45,217 nt of DNA, from positions 1 to 45,217 of the forward strand of contig JAJTXZ010000037.1 of the NCBI GenBank assembly GCA_021463195.1, given 5' to 3'. This stretch comes from Anaerolineae bacterium. Its GTDB lineage: Bacteria; Chloroflexota; Anaerolineae; UBA4142; SHND01. A model generated the notes under the pieces. That model worked only from the letters and a program-made list of their open reading frames with translations. It searched no databases and was not told the origin of the DNA. Of the stretch, positions 19,747 to 25,951 are shown one piece after another. How positions within the stretch are numbered: the first letter of the stretch is position 1; every line of letters begins with the position of its first letter. The position numbers and the translations under genes are program-made.

Positions 19747-20946
19747 CTAGAGCTCAATGCGATAACTCTCCACCGGACGCGGCGCTTTTTGCATAATGTC
19801 GGGCGAGAGATTGTGTTTCAGCTGCGCCCATTTCAGCCCTGCCCACTCGCGCAGAATGACGGGATACATCATCGGATTGAATAAAATGTTGATGGTCATG
19901 AAACATTCATAGGTGCAGTAACACTTGGTGTCGCTAATCCATTTTCGCACTTCGTCGGCTTTTTGCGATTGCCAGATTTTTTTGAAATCGTAATCGTAAT
20001 CGCGCACGTTGCCGAGAATTTTTTCGTCGAGCAATTCGCACGCCAACACCGAACCGTCCGCGTACATCGCGCCGCCGAGCGAACCGGCGTAACATGGAAT
20101 TTGATAACGGCGCTCTTTGGTCATTTTGTGATTCAGTTTCGGACGGATGATGCGCTTGGCGTTGATGAAATCGCCAAAGGGCAATTTGTAATAGCCCGTC
20201 AATTCGCGCGAACGATTATCATGTTCGAGTCGTTTATGGAAATTGAGATAATTGTCCACGTCGAATTGATTCGCCTTGGGGTCAATCGGCGGCGTGTATT
20301 TCGCGCCGGGGTCTTTGGGCCCGCCGCGCAATAACAAAGTAAATACCGTATTCACGCCGACGTACGTCCGCAAGTAATCGTAAATCTCATCCAACTTGTC
20401 GTGATTGTACGCGCTGACCGCGATTTGAATGCAGGTCGAAAAATTGGGATAGTATTTTTCGAGAATGCGGAGTTCGCGATAGGTGCGAATCGCGCGATCG
20501 AACAATCCTTTAAAGCCGCGAAATTTATCGTGGTCGTCTTCGACGCCGTCAATGGAAATATCAATATGCAAATCCACATCAGGACAATCGTCCAGAATTT
20601 CGCGCGCGCCGTCCACGACGCGGCTGGTGAGCGAGCCATTCGTCGGAATGCCGACGTTCAACGCTTTCGCGTTCTTGTGAAACATCTTGACGATTTCGGG
20701 AATGTCTTTGCGTAAAAACGGCTCGCCGCCGGTGGGCGTGAAAAAAATCATCGGGTCCATGGACGCGCTGACCTTTTCGATTTCGTCAATCGTCAATTCG
20801 CCCGTGTGCCGCTCGTGCGAACCAAGCAGACAGTGTCCGCAGCGCGCGTTGCAATTTTTAGTAATGAACAAGACAAAGTACAGCGGCGACGCGCCTTTTT
20901 TCCACAACACGCGTTTGGCAAAGGGGAGATAGTTGAGTTTGCTCAT
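19747..20946 (-). CDS. Radical SAM enzyme with SPASM-like C-terminus
   Basis: A 399-residue protein. The cluster motif is CNARCGHC (Cys 32, 36, 39), binding the iron-sulfur centre that cleaves S-adenosylmethionine. TPTGGEPFLRKDI holds the GGE motif, and IDISIDGVEDDHDKFRG is the strand 4-5 region. The C-terminal part has CYAGSLGGAMYADGSVLACELL and later CYCTYECF, a SPASM-like set of Cys that may bind extra clusters. It resembles enzymes that modify peptides or act on lipids and sugars; the substrate is unknown. The start has a good ribosome site (GGAG). It is the last gene of a minus-strand run that includes the Cys-rich chimera, which makes a peptide-type substrate conceivable. Confidence 0.88.
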   Translation of the reverse strand: MSKLNYLPFAKRVLWKKGASPLYFVLFITKNCNARCGHCLLGSHERHTGELTIDEIEKVSASMDPMIFFTPTGGEPFLRKDIPEIVKMFHKNAKALNVGIPTNGSLTSRVVDGAREILDDCPDVDLHIDISIDGVEDDHDKFRGFKGLFDRAIRTYRELRILEKYYPNFSTCIQIAVSAYNHDKLDEIYDYLRTYVGVNTVFTLLLRGGPKDPGAKYTPPIDPKANQFDVDNYLNFHKRLEHDNRSRELTGYYKLPFGDFINAKRIIRPKLNHKMTKERRYQIPCYAGSLGGAMYADGSVLACELLDEKILGNVRDYDYDFKKIWQSQKADEVRKWISDTKCYCTYECFMTINILFNPMMYPVILREWAGLKWAQLKHNLSPDIMQKAPRPVESYRIEL

Positions 20947-20972: not shown

Positions 20973-22361
20973 TTACTTTTTTGGATTCTCGATAATCCAT
21001 GCCTGGTCCATGGTGCGTAAGGCGAGTTTGCTCCCGTCAGGCGACCACAAGAACTGGACAATGTCCAAGCCGTTGGTGAGCTGTTGTCGCCAACGGCCAT
21101 CAGGCGATATGAGGTAGGTGTTTCCATCATCGCCCCAGTACGCGACAAGACTTCCATCGGGCGACCATGCGGGACGACCAAGCTGCCAATACCGCAGTGT
21201 CTTGTCAGGATTCTCTTCTTGCTTGTACCCGGCAGGTCCCAGCATTGTTATTTTGTTGGTCGCCAAGTCAAGCACGCCCAGTTCCAATGAGGTGACGCCC
21301 GCAGATTGATTCACATTCAGTCCGTTGACTTTGGCATAAACCCATGGAGAATCCTTTTGTTGAAGAAAGGCAATTTGGGTTCCATCGAAGGATAGAGCAG
21401 CGGCGGCAACACCATCGAGTAACTTGGTAAACGTATTTGTGTCAATATCCCAAAGCCGCAGTGTGACATCGGAACTGAGCAGTCCGAGATCAGGATCACC
21501 ATTTTCCCATTCCGTGTAGAGGAAACGATTGTTATCTGGCATCCAGGCTTGGAAGGATTGGCGCAGAGGGAACGGGGCATCTGTAATCCATTTGCGCGAA
21601 TCAGGTTGTTCTCTCGCAACAATTGCAATCTGTCCACCAAATCCCGTCTGAATTGCAATAACCTGATGGTTAGGAGAAAAATAGTAATTTCCCCCAATAG
21701 CTTGTGGGCTCGGTACATTCTCCTGCACACCAATCAATGTTTTAATCTCGTCAGTTACTACATTGACTGTGTTTAAGGTCTGAACCTCATTCCCACGCCA
21801 GACATAAAATGTAACTGTTTGGCTATCTAGCCATTGGTTCACGTACATCAAACGTAAGCCAAGTTTCATCGAGGCCGTGAGATTTTTGAGTTCGGCTCCA
21901 TCAATGCGGCTACTCCAGATGAAATTTTGTGGCGACGTTTGACCATCAACGGCTTGATTTCCATAAAAGGCAATTTGGTTTCCATCAGGCGAATAGTAAA
22001 CTTCGCCCAATTGCGCGTTATCAACAGTAGCCAGGCGCCTTGAGACCAGACTTGCTGTTTCCAACAGCCATATGCTGTCACGCCAGCTGTAAGCAAGAGT
22101 TCTTCCATCTGGTGACCAACCTATAGGGTGGTATCCCTGATAGTCGCCGTAGCGTCCCGGTGGTATTGTGATTGAGATATTCGAGAGTATATTCAGTTCT
22201 GCGGACAGACCCGAATTTGGACTCTGCTCTGTTGGCCAGGTTGTCGCCATCTGCGGAGTGTTAACTTGAACCGAATTTAGTTCCGTTCCGCTTGAACAGC
22301 CGGCGCTCGCAAGCAGAATAATTCCCAGACCGAGTTGGAGAACAAGTTCTCTTGAGCGCAT
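20973..22361 (-). CDS. TolB-like beta-propeller lipoprotein
   Basis: About 462 residues. The N-terminus is a lipoprotein signal (LGLGIILLASAGCSSG, with the lipidated Cys). The rest is a WD40/TolB-type propeller with blades carrying GWSPDGRTLAYSW, YSPDGNQIAFYG, SFDGTQIAFLQQ, AWSPDGSLVAYWG and LWSPDGSKLALRT. Such domains bind partners outside the membrane. An ATG at 22397 would add 12 residues before the signal. It lies 26 bases before the radical SAM gene and 140 bases after the Cys-rich chimera gene. CGCG words are rare here compared with the housekeeping genes, which suggests a different origin. Confidence 0.85.
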   Translation of the reverse strand: MRSRELVLQLGLGIILLASAGCSSGTELNSVQVNTPQMATTWPTEQSPNSGLSAELNILSNISITIPPGRYGDYQGYHPIGWSPDGRTLAYSWRDSIWLLETASLVSRRLATVDNAQLGEVYYSPDGNQIAFYGNQAVDGQTSPQNFIWSSRIDGAELKNLTASMKLGLRLMYVNQWLDSQTVTFYVWRGNEVQTLNTVNVVTDEIKTLIGVQENVPSPQAIGGNYYFSPNHQVIAIQTGFGGQIAIVAREQPDSRKWITDAPFPLRQSFQAWMPDNNRFLYTEWENGDPDLGLLSSDVTLRLWDIDTNTFTKLLDGVAAAALSFDGTQIAFLQQKDSPWVYAKVNGLNVNQSAGVTSLELGVLDLATNKITMLGPAGYKQEENPDKTLRYWQLGRPAWSPDGSLVAYWGDDGNTYLISPDGRWRQQLTNGLDIVQFLWSPDGSKLALRTMDQAWIIENPKK

Positions 22362-22539
22362 GAATTTATGGTCTGACTCACCTTGCGTATCTAGCATGCT
22401 GAAATTCTTTGTTGCAAGAACCGCCCCTCAGAATGAAGACACGTACGGTGAGTTGTATAAACATTGTCGAGCATTAGCCATTCATCAAACTTGGTATCTC
22501 GATAAATGGGCGTATCTTCGAACGGGGTGCAATTGCGTA

Positions 22540-24375
22540 TTACAGAATCCTCCAAAAACAGTTTTCGTAGATTCCCCCATTAAAGCAGGGCTTAGTTGGA
22601 TCACCCCTGTAACAGTCGCAGGCCACGTTGGGATGGCAATCAAGGCAGGCTTTGGTTCCCCCTGAACCATTTGGATCAGCCGCATATATCCACGCAGGTC
22701 CACTCGCAAAAGCTCCGCTGGCAGTCTGCTCAGTACAAGTACCGTTGCACTGTCCATCAAACGGTACAACTTCTCCATGAAAACATGCTTGTACTACAGG
22801 ATCAGGGACTTGACCTTTCCATACATTATCTGCTACTTGACGAGATGTAGGAGTCGCAAGACGTGCTTGACTGAACTGACCAGGTGCATCACAGATTGCT
22901 TTGTATTTTACCGCGCGTTTGGCGGATTGTTCGCGTGCCCCCCATCTCCCATTGGGGCTGCCATAGCCTCCACAATCAGTCGAAACAGAATAGGCTCTGA
23001 AAACGCGAGTACGCACAGCCCAAGCAACAGCACGTTGAGCTCCGATTGATTCGCTTTCCGCTTCGCTTGCTACTACCTTCGCCAGTTTTTCTTTAGCTAC
23101 GGTCACCTGTCCTTCCGTACCAGCTTCTGGCTCATCTACGGCGTTTGTGGTCAAGTAGGAATCTCCTTCAAAAAACAATCCTGTTTGAGGTACACTGTCC
23201 TTGATGCGATAACGCGCAGGCGCTGGAAACGAACGGCTCATCTCATTGAACCTGACATATGCTTGGCTTGCCCGGTTTGCTTTGCCAAGACGTTCCAACG
23301 CAACTCCTTTGAGAAAATGCGCGTAGAGCAAATCAACTTTGTCATTGACAAGTTTGACGACAGCGTCGTCTTGCCCGCGGTCGAGCAGCCATTCCGCGTA
23401 GTATGCCAAAGCGTCCGAGATGCCTTGAGGTTCAACCGCCATCGCTTTTCGAAACCACTTTTCCGCTCGAGGGTCGTCAAGTAGCTGCAACCCTCTCGCA
23501 TAGTGCAGATTAGCCAGGTATTCGCGGTTGCCCTTGGCGAGCGCGACCTCAAAGTATCGGTCGAGCGCGGCAGCATCTTGCAGCGCGCCCAAGGTCATTG
23601 CAACTTCATACGTGTAATGGACTCTACCAAATTGGATACCGATTTCATCGGCAGTTAGAAATTCTTGCGCGGCAGCCCGCAAATCTTCTAGTAACTGCTC
23701 TCTGCCATGGCGCTGCCACAGAGCCGCGCCAAGACCTGCGTGCGTATGACGACTCTCTGGATTCTTTGCTACTGCTGCTGCCAGCAGCTCAACTGCCTCA
23801 TCTATTTGCCCCGCCTGCAAAAAGGTATCTCCAGCCAAGAACGCGCGCAACGCGTCAACCCTTTCATTTGGATCCGGGTATTCGGCGGCATGTCCCAGAT
23901 AATTACTGGCAATGAATTCTCGAACCCCCGGTTGAAGGTCATCCGTGGGGGGATTGCCTTGCGGCGGCAACGCCGCGGGGGCAGGACTATGCAAACCCGG
24001 AATACCGAGCAAAGCAAATCCGGCGAGTGCTTTTCCGCTGTACGAAAAGAACGCGCGACGAGACAATTCAAACCCGGTGATGGAAACGCCAAAGCCACGC
24101 ACCACGCTTGCGACACGATACGCGCGCTGCGGTCCTAAAACAGCTAGCAGACGAACGCGCATCGCAATTCCAGTAAACGCCGACACATGACCATCGTGGA
24201 CCTGGAGCAGCGTCGGTTCATGTTTCCAGTCAGGGCGCGCTTGCGAAAGTAAACTTTGCATTTCTTGATCGCGTAGCGATTTGGCGGTCAAAAGCCCATC
24301 GCTCTCGCGCTCAACCGCTTGCGCCAATCCAGTGCAAAGTGAACAGCCCGAATCGAACAAGAGAAAGTGCTTCAT
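22540..24375 (-). CDS. Chimera: FDSGCxxC redox domain, Tat-like segment, TPRs, Cys-rich SleB-like domain
   Basis: A 611-residue protein starting with a good ribosome site (AAGGAG). Residues 1-100 are a DCC/thioredoxin-like domain (LLFDSGCSLCTG; ARPDWKHEPTLLQV) shared with the redoxin at 25055. Residues 105-126 hold SRRAFF followed by a hydrophobic stretch (ALAGFALLGIPG) and an Ala/Pro-rich exit, like an internal twin-arginine signal. Residues 155-400 look like TPRs (LAGDTFLQAGQIDEAVELLA, LANLHYARGLQLL). The end (about 430-611) has ASEAESESIGAQRAVAWAV, ICDAPGQFSQARL and KGQVPDPVVQACF, much like the SleB/CwlJ cell-wall hydrolase domain, with about twelve extra cysteines. The role is unknown. 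A redox-controlled, exported wall enzyme or a Cys-rich product is inference. Its 3' half is CGCG-poor. Confidence 0.8.
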   Translation of the reverse strand: MKHFLLFDSGCSLCTGLAQAVERESDGLLTAKSLRDQEMQSLLSQARPDWKHEPTLLQVHDGHVSAFTGIAMRVRLLAVLGPQRAYRVASVVRGFGVSITGFELSRRAFFSYSGKALAGFALLGIPGLHSPAPAALPPQGNPPTDDLQPGVREFIASNYLGHAAEYPDPNERVDALRAFLAGDTFLQAGQIDEAVELLAAAVAKNPESRHTHAGLGAALWQRHGREQLLEDLRAAAQEFLTADEIGIQFGRVHYTYEVAMTLGALQDAAALDRYFEVALAKGNREYLANLHYARGLQLLDDPRAEKWFRKAMAVEPQGISDALAYYAEWLLDRGQDDAVVKLVNDKVDLLYAHFLKGVALERLGKANRASQAYVRFNEMSRSFPAPARYRIKDSVPQTGLFFEGDSYLTTNAVDEPEAGTEGQVTVAKEKLAKVVASEAESESIGAQRAVAWAVRTRVFRAYSVSTDCGGYGSPNGRWGAREQSAKRAVKYKAICDAPGQFSQARLATPTSRQVADNVWKGQVPDPVVQACFHGEVVPFDGQCNGTCTEQTASGAFASGPAWIYAADPNGSGGTKACLDCHPNVACDCYRGDPTKPCFNGGIYENCFWRIL

Positions 24376-24465
24376 TGTTGAGCTCCTTGAGGTTAGAGCA
24401 TTGAAATTTCTTCTTGCGATAGTTGTTCTCGGGATTCAGGTTCAGCGTGTTTAGCGTATAGGGAT

Positions 24466-24492: not shown

Positions 24493-24732
24493 CTAGCCCG
24501 CGAGAGTCAGCACACGTTCAATTTCTTTTGGCACGGCAATCATCACAAAGCGCGAATTGTGATACAGATAATCCTCGCCCGATTCATCAACAATCCGAAT
24601 AAAATCATCTCGCGCGGCAGATTCATCGGGGAGGACTTTGTAGAGTTTGAACAAAACCAAGTCATCTTCCCCTTCGCTGCGAATACACAACGCAAAGCGG
24701 TTCGTTGCGGATTGTTTTACACGAGTGGTCAG
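24493..24732 (-). CDS. Small conserved hypothetical protein, second of a pair
   Basis: About 79 residues: RFALCIRSEGEDDLVLFKLY, then VLPDESAARDDFIRIVDESG, then EDYLYHNSRFVMIAVPKEIE. I recall similar short proteins in cyanobacteria and Chloroflexota, with no known function. No ATG, GTG or TTG lies near the natural start. A CTG at 24732 overlaps the TGA of the upstream gene (CTGA), which would suit coupled translation. An ATG at 24858 gives a longer frame, but its extra residues overlap the neighbour gene and look like noise. The protein is small, soluble and mixed alpha/beta by eye. Confidence 0.65.
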   Translation of the reverse strand: MTTRVKQSATNRFALCIRSEGEDDLVLFKLYKVLPDESAARDDFIRIVDESGEDYLYHNSRFVMIAVPKEIERVLTLAG

Positions 24733-24962
24733 TCCAAAAAGCGGCTGACTTTGATTTTTCTTTTGCCGATGCCGTGCGCTTCGTACCACTGAATTTCGGC
24801 TTTGCGAACGCGTCCGTTCGGCAACAGGACGAGGGTCGCGCCTTTGAGTTTTCTCCATCTGCCACTTCCATATTTTCGGCGGAGCTGTCGAATCTCTCGA
24901 ATGGATTGATTGACAGCAATTCGCTCGATGTTGGTGATATCGCTGATGATTTCAAAATCCAT
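24729..24962 (-). CDS. Small conserved hypothetical protein, first of a pair
   Basis: 77 residues: IREIRQLRRKYGSGRWRKLK, then GATLVLLPNGRVRKAEIQWY, then EAHGIGKRKIKVSRFLD. The basic stretch and the WYEAHGIG motif belong to a widespread small family of unknown function that I recall mostly from cyanobacteria and Chloroflexota. A nucleic-acid or protein contact is possible given the charge. It overlaps the next small gene by four bases and so forms a tight pair with it. It lies 92 bases after the redoxin gene on the same strand. Confidence 0.75.
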   Translation of the reverse strand: MDFEIISDITNIERIAVNQSIREIRQLRRKYGSGRWRKLKGATLVLLPNGRVRKAEIQWYEAHGIGKRKIKVSRFLD

Positions 24963-25054: not shown

Positions 25055-25951
25055 CTACGAAACAACCACCTTATCTTCTTTCCGCGTTGCCAGCGCCTGT
25101 TTCAACGTCTCGACGCTCACGTAAAATGTATTGGCGAGCGAGTCGAGATGCCAGTTATTATTGACAATGCCTTTGCCGCGAATTATCCCCGTCGCGTCGA
25201 GCGCGAAACCATATGGCACGCCGACCACGCCAAAGGCGGAACGCGTTTCAGGCGAAATCACCAGCGGAATTTTGCCAAGTTTGAATTCTTTGACAAAGGC
25301 GCGCAATTTGTCCGCCTCGACCACGCTAAAAACCAGCGTCAAATTTTCCGGCGATTCCGCCGCGAATTCTTTTAGATACGGCGCGATTTTGCGACAAAAA
25401 CCGCAGCCCGTGGAAAGAAACAATAAAATGGTATTGTCATTCGCGCCATCGCGCAAATGAATCGTTTTGCCTTTGGTCGTCGTCAACATCGCGACCGGCG
25501 TGAACGCGCCCAATTCTGGACCGTCTTTGGTATAGCTGAATCCGTCGGGCAATTCGGACGTGAGCGCTGGCACGTCGCCGCCGGCATGCGCGTCCGCCGC
25601 GGCGTTTTCGGATGGCTGCGGCTCGTGCATCTCGAACGCGCCGAACAGCGGAACGCCTGCCTTTTGCGCGACGCGCGCGATTTTCAATAGTTGCAGCGGA
25701 TTGAGAAACGTCACCATGTGCGTTCGCATCGCCAAGCCGGTGTAGGCGCGCACCGTTTCGCCGTCCACTTGAACTAGCGTCGGCTCGAATTTCCAACCGG
25801 GGCGCGCGCGGTCGAGCAGCTCTTTCGCTTCGGGCGCGTACAAACTCAAGCCGCGTAAATTATTGCCGCTCGCTTTTTCGATTTCCGCCGCGACATCCGC
25901 GCATTGCGCGCAGCCGGAATCAAAAAGAATGTAATGCTTAACTTTACGCAT
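25055..25951 (-). CDS. Two-domain redoxin: FDSGCxxC domain plus CGFC thioredoxin
   Basis: 298 residues from the ATG at 25951; the longer frame to 26041 overlaps the methyltransferase gene. The first ~105 residues (ILFDSGCAQCADV; ARPGWKFEPTLVQVDGE) are the same DCC-like domain as in the 611-residue chimera. The second (about 140-298) is a TlpA/redoxin domain with the CGFC active site at about 183-186 (LLFLSTGCGFCRKIAPYL) and the cis-Pro region VVGVPYGFALD. The two thiol pairs could pass electrons from one domain to the other. No signal peptide is seen, so it is probably cytoplasmic or held at the membrane by partners. It follows the methyltransferase gene. Confidence 0.85.
   Translation of the reverse strand: MRKVKHYILFDSGCAQCADVAAEIEKASGNNLRGLSLYAPEAKELLDRARPGWKFEPTLVQVDGETVRAYTGLAMRTHMVTFLNPLQLLKIARVAQKAGVPLFGAFEMHEPQPSENAAADAHAGGDVPALTSELPDGFSYTKDGPELGAFTPVAMLTTTKGKTIHLRDGANDNTILLFLSTGCGFCRKIAPYLKEFAAESPENLTLVFSVVEADKLRAFVKEFKLGKIPLVISPETRSAFGVVGVPYGFALDATGIIRGKGIVNNNWHLDSLANTFYVSVETLKQALATRKEDKVVVS

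Follow-up and report, generated by a model that had tools for sequence, protein, structure and literature searches.

The window (the whole stretch of DNA analysed, 45,217 nucleotides) carries a gene for a 611-residue chimera that we read, with a probability of roughly 60%, as a cell wall hydrolase of the SleB/CwlJ type exported by the Tat pathway, whose Sec signal would have been replaced by a leader module combining a thiol-redox domain and a Tat signal. A literature search found no paper describing this front module, which itself appears undescribed. The locus is organized as follows.

22540..24375, minus strand: chimera gene, 611 amino acids plus stop (open reading frame, full-length relative at 64% identity, low pN throughout)
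24383..24388, minus strand: AAGGAG ribosome-binding site upstream of the start ATG at 24375 (read directly from the sequence)
24076..24375, minus strand: residues 1-100, predicted thioredoxin-like, DCC1-related domain (AF2, fold matches, HHalign)
24334..24345, minus strand: CxxC, Cys11 and Cys14 (sequence)
23971..24063, minus strand: residues 105-135, SRRAFF twin arginine and weakly hydrophobic segment, putative internal Tat-like signal (RR conservation, KD15, TIGR01409 in relatives)
23107..23970, minus strand: residues 136-423, linker and TPR repeats (weak Pfam TPR matches; conserved in L004, L005, L006 and L032)
22543..23106, minus strand: residues 424-611, predicted SleB/CwlJ-type (Hydrolase_2) catalytic domain with 11 cysteines (HHalign)
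23062..23064, minus strand: Glu438, position of the SleB catalytic glutamate (HHalign alignment; invariant in five homologues)
22558..22974, minus strand: cysteine cluster, residues 468-606 (sequence)
20973..22397, minus strand: PD40 beta-propeller lipoprotein, conserved partner gene (PD40 E 2.5e-13)
25055..25951, minus strand: neighbour in which a domain like the N-domain of the chimera is joined to a MauD-like thioredoxin and the RR segment is lacking (TIGR02661, identity)

The minus strand is the coding strand of a 611-codon open reading frame whose boundaries are exactly 22540-24375, and the plus strand of this interval, read directly, has many stops. A Chloroflexota MAG of the same genus (G005, JAKOPZ010000109.1) encodes a full-length relative (64% identity, E 4.7e-263) with identical domain order, upholding the order proposed in the initial annotation. 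Comparison of the two genes gave pN values of 0.17 for the redox domain, 0.15 for the RR segment, 0.29 for the TPR region and 0.19 for the SleB part, with pS between 0.69 and 0.85, synonymous sites being near saturation. Because pN is low in every part and a full-length relative exists, an artefactual fusion (by assembly or frameshift) was excluded and the chimera is, as judged from these substitution patterns, an established protein under purifying selection in every part. Searching the whole of its own genome (4.72 Mb, 143 contigs) showed just two other matches to the chimera, both confined to the N-terminal part: one on contig C66 with 43% identity over residues 1-130 and one in the neighbouring gene.

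We looked at the nature of the C-terminal domain by profile comparison. HHalign aligned the family of residues 424-611 with SleB over the whole length of the domain (probability 97.5%, E 5.9e-12), as the initial annotation had proposed from short motifs, with a maximum of 4.5% for 100 column shuffles and 0.1% for the reversed family. Leaving out the Chloroflexota member L061 gave 96.0%, and a query reduced to the two chimera rows, against the set lacking L061, gave 61%. At the PF07486 gathering score (27 bits) the chimera has no match; its homologues gave two weak matches (best E 0.019), and Hydrolase_2 is the sole Pfam family found among homologues of the C-terminal domain. Searches with PF07486 found none in 60 relatives and two in 201 phylum genomes, and the C-terminal alignment found no match in a profile search of the PDB. 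An AF2 model of residues 424-611 built from three sequences reached a pLDDT of 33, so that the assignment of the domain to the SleB/CwlJ type is a profile-based one.

Glu438 aligns with the glutamate of the EARGE motif of SleB, and the equivalent glutamate was reported as essential in that enzyme (PMC12331253). The predicted hydrolase is probably a lytic transglycosylase using Glu438, its action on the wall being deduced from homology. With the SleB/CwlJ spore cortex-lytic enzymes (PF07486; PDB 4f55, 4fet) the domain has in common whole-domain homology, the conserved glutamate, a QF motif and a final W...(H/C)xFYR-like motif, its last residues being NCFWRIL at the place of H-x-F-Y/C-K in SleB. 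It differs from them by long Cys-rich insertions, a sub-cut-off Pfam score and the lack of a spore context. Moreover, TPRs, whose Pfam matches in the chimera are weak and under the gathering scores, replace the peptidoglycan-binding domain. Neither this domain nor the front module found relatives in the viral contigs searched.

The 13 cysteines of the chimera are unevenly distributed: two form the CxxC, residues 15-467 are free of them and the other 11 lie in residues 468-606; at an assumed background of 0.9%, the chance of at least 11 per 188 residues is about 1e-6. The clustering noticed in the initial annotation therefore stands, but the "about twelve" cysteines that it placed in the last 130 residues are in fact 10. 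Homologues have totals of 11, 13, 9 and 13. Relative to the chimera, L005 is missing just two cysteines, C580 and C588, and L032 carries just two more, a paired gain and loss that fits disulfides and hints at them, although odd totals leave one cysteine over. The putative hydrolase could be switched by redox state, as the initial annotation proposed. We also considered whether a CxxCH sequence at residues 577-581, present in 3 of 5 homologues, binds haem c or a metal, making the C-terminal domain a redox or metal protein and not a hydrolase. This is very improbable, as L005 and L006 have lost the CxxCH, in contrast to an invariant SleB motif with its Glu438, and the joint loss of C580 and C588 in L005 is what a disulfide would predict.

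At the other end of the protein, the AF2 model of the N-domain has a pLDDT of about 90 across most of residues 1-100 and the order beta-alpha-beta-alpha-beta-beta-alpha-alpha. Its leading fold matches were all thioredoxin, glutaredoxin or GST-like, and with modest Z scores (up to 5.3) they indicate fold class only. Together with FDSGCSLC at residues 7-14, the model and these matches describe residues 1-100 as a thioredoxin-like fold with a CxxC. The module family also aligned with DCC1-like proteins of related genomes (HHalign probability 88, shuffled maximum 5.5), and the DCC1-like model PF04134 gave 15.8 bits (E 0.035) on the chimera, under its gathering score of 27.8 bits. The domain therefore resembles DCC1-like thiol-disulfide oxidoreductases in its N-terminal CxxC and by HHalign, but differs from them in scoring below the cut-off and in being joined to a Tat-like segment.

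A similar domain is found next door. The MauD-like neighbour is 42% identical to chimera residues 1-106, and its N-domain is joined to a domain resembling MauD and TlpA-like thioredoxins, but it scores below the TIGR02661 cut-off (E 7.5e-20) and lacks the RR segment. Copies of the module fused to MauD in this way have no exported tail and no RR segment, and the neighbour is kept in genus genomes without the chimera. On a local copying of the module from this gene, a tree gave no resolution. Two small ORFs of about 77 and 75 aa (24493-24960, minus strand) separate the MauD-like gene from the chimera, and the corresponding gap in the G005 locus is only about 137 bp.

Residues 105-135 (SRRAFFSYSGKALAGFALLGIPG and following) start with SRRAFF at 105-110, the twin arginine being at 106-107. 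The arrangement of module followed by RR segment recurs in 19 proteins with differing tails and 21-33% identity to the chimera, in which R106 is invariant and R107 is present in at least 90%. Both orthologues have low KD15 hydrophobicity peaks (1.4 and 1.7), similar to those of other module proteins (1.6-1.9) and well below the 2.6-2.9 of the Sec-type signals found on TPR-SleB homologues. This near-invariant RR and low hydrophobicity support the internal Tat-like segment suggested in the initial annotation. The Tat models TIGR01409 and PF10518 did not report the chimera itself; TIGR01409 matched 6 of the 19 module proteins at E up to 1, and in several module proteins it scored above or near its cut-off. 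TatC is encoded in the genome (E 3.6e-34); its gene (G000:C88, 15413-16294) matches PF00902 as two pieces within one 408-aa frame, suggesting an insertion.

The same segment could alternatively be an ordinary signal anchor inserted by Sec/YidC. The chimera would then be a type II membrane protein whose redox domain faces the cytoplasm and whose hydrolase lies outside, with the RR serving merely as a positive-inside flank. Such an anchor would agree with the Sec-type export of the mature-domain homologues L005, L006 and L032, and no clear signal-peptidase site is common to both orthologues. We nonetheless consider it unlikely, considering that RR and the following F/L-rich positions are nearly invariant across 19 diverged proteins, that the segment is far less hydrophobic than Sec-type signals on equivalent cargo and that several module proteins approach or pass the TIGR01409 cut-off. 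A precedent for a Tat signal inside the chain is provided by actinobacterial Rieske proteins (QcrA), in which the third transmembrane segment acts as an internal Tat signal that is not cleaved, the C-terminal part crosses the membrane in folded form and an RR-to-KK variant failed to restore function (PMC4383559). In QcrA the N-terminal part consists of two Sec-inserted helices, whereas in the chimera it is a soluble redox domain.

We also searched for the TPR-SleB part on its own. Three homologues (L005, L006 and L032, 48-51% identity) carry Sec-type signals in place of the front module. Of the homologues surveyed, the relative from the same genus thus has both features expected by the initial annotation, the first domain and the twin arginine, but these three lack the first domain. 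TPR-SleB is rare, as a C-terminal profile run against 400 phylum genomes matched the chimera's own genome alone. A Cys-rich domain persists in the module-free Sec-type homologues, so its cysteines do not depend on the module, and by these comparisons the two halves of the chimera have separate histories.

A propeller or lipoprotein gene follows TPR-SleB in 5 of 5 loci, those with Sec-type signals each having a propeller gene of the PD40 type beside them, and the L032 partner and the window's lipoprotein are homologues (35%, E 3e-40). In the window and in G005 the chimera and the PD40 gene lie between a MauD-like and a radical SAM gene; in three other genus genomes (G001, G003 and G004) the MauD-like gene is followed by the radical SAM gene and the chimera site is empty. 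Because two genus genomes carry both genes and three have an empty site, the chimera and the PD40 gene are a two-gene cassette and the radical SAM gene is its flank. This radical SAM/SPASM gene (19747-20946, minus strand) is 93-96% identical across the genus against 55-80% for its neighbours, which points to unusual conservation or recent exchange.

The most economical account of the chimera is the replacement of the original Sec signal, a direction of change that we infer, by a ready-made 135-residue redox/Tat leader made of a thioredoxin-like CxxC domain and an internal Tat signal. The leader domain would fold in the cytoplasm and the twin-arginine segment would present the folded TPR and hydrolase part to Tat. 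The redox domain would remain in the cytoplasm, either as part of a membrane anchor or removed by signal peptidase. Outside the cell, the TPRs might dock the partner beta-propeller lipoprotein and disulfides might hold the Cys-rich hydrolase domain. Since Tat exports folded proteins, the cysteines of a disulfide-rich Tat cargo must be dealt with either before export or while it is under way. Ahead of export, the redox domain may maintain or adjust the cargo thiols, a role that fits its link with Cys-rich tails.

This link emerged from the distribution of the module. Its profile matched 13 of 400 phylum genomes, one of which holds ten copies, and many tails of module proteins are Cys-rich, with 10-23 cysteines. 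Beyond the phylum sample, tblastn on plasmids revealed a module-type front part in proteins of Thermomicrobium, Rubrobacter and Streptomyces, several plasmid module proteins being annotated as bacteriocin fulvocin C-related. The tail of a module protein in G436 corresponds to the fulvocin C-related domain NF033852 (E 9e-31), and this NCBIfam model spans just the C-terminal 150 residues, that is, the tail and not the module. Like the chimera, the fulvocin C-related proteins L045, L072 and L075 start with a thioredoxin-like FD/NxxCxxC domain, continue with a hydrophobic segment containing RR or R and end in an exported Cys-rich tail; in the chimera, by contrast, the tail is TPR plus SleB. Module, RR segment and Cys-rich exported tail thus form a recurrent architecture, which revises the statement in the initial annotation that no described protein with this order was known to it. 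By sequence comparison, each part of the chimera has known relatives, and annotated fulvocin C-related proteins have the same front-module order.

These findings raise a reading of the chimera as a bacteriocin-like killing enzyme, a bacteriolysin, whose leader is that of fulvocin C-type precursors and whose beta-propeller lipoprotein is an immunity or anchoring partner. The leader does precede fulvocin C-related domains in G436 and in Streptomyces plasmid proteins, and a two-gene cassette with empty sites within the genus would suit such a role. On the contrary, the fulvocin domain (NF033852, 35 bits) is absent from the NCBIfam matches of the chimera, and leaderless TPR-SleB proteins with an equivalent partner gene exist, which is a better fit with housekeeping wall remodelling; we regard a killing enzyme as quite improbable. 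A genome search for fulvocin gave no match, its controls being silent as well.

Returning to an exported wall hydrolase with a redox/Tat leader, the recurrence of the module before Cys-rich secreted proteins suggests an undescribed export device for such proteins. More tentatively, and here we are doubtful, the module could be a general cis-acting redox leader that guards or sets the thiols of Cys-rich cargo and whose internal Tat signal releases correctly folded cargo, attached to bacteriocins, Cys-rich proteins and a wall hydrolase in several phyla, and perhaps escorting signal-less Cys-rich hydrolase-like proteins in trans. Redox chemistry cannot be common to all modules, because in at least one module protein, L011 (GCKETS), the second cysteine and with it the full CxxC has been lost. 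A redox domain covalently joined to the front of an internal Tat signal, and reused in several phyla before Cys-rich products, would let the exported proteins solve the cargo-cysteine problem by themselves. The TPR-SleB cargo carries a Sec signal in certain lineages and the module in one other, a natural comparison that makes the question directly testable. The module is also a sequence handle for spotting unrecognised bacteriocin-like precursors.

The possible action in trans concerns module proteins of type A, whose tail is nearly cysteine-free, a point against our main reading. Four operons, including one on C66 in the chimera's own genome, continue with a gene for a Cys-rich protein that lacks a signal and has YGH...GxHxHxE motifs, after which a propeller or lipoprotein gene is found nearby. 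HHalign of these Cys-rich proteins against M23 gave 31.5% (shuffled maximum 0.8), and they had no Pfam match and no M23 match in the PDB. The comparison is suggestive of M23-like proteins, which would place the module again beside a wall hydrolase. The propeller lipoprotein beside the type-A gene of the chimera's own genome showed no clear kinship with the partner of the chimera, and the Halocin C8 family, with weak matches only (E 0.057-0.71), was not adopted. Near the module/Cys-rich/PD40 operon on C66, a SpoIID-PA14 protein adjoins a PD40 protein (L076, 8512-11618), another possible pair of wall enzyme and propeller.

Other arrangements were also noticed. About ten module genes are clustered in G029 (L080, L082, L083 and L084), several with internal stops, and at least one remnant of the module, at L082 (3876-4685), is joined to a metalloprotease of the matrixin type (M10; E 7e-9). 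On the Thermomicrobium and Rubrobacter plasmids (L073 and L074), genes for S8 serine peptidases, possibly processing proteases, are found close to those for module proteins with a Cys-rich tail.
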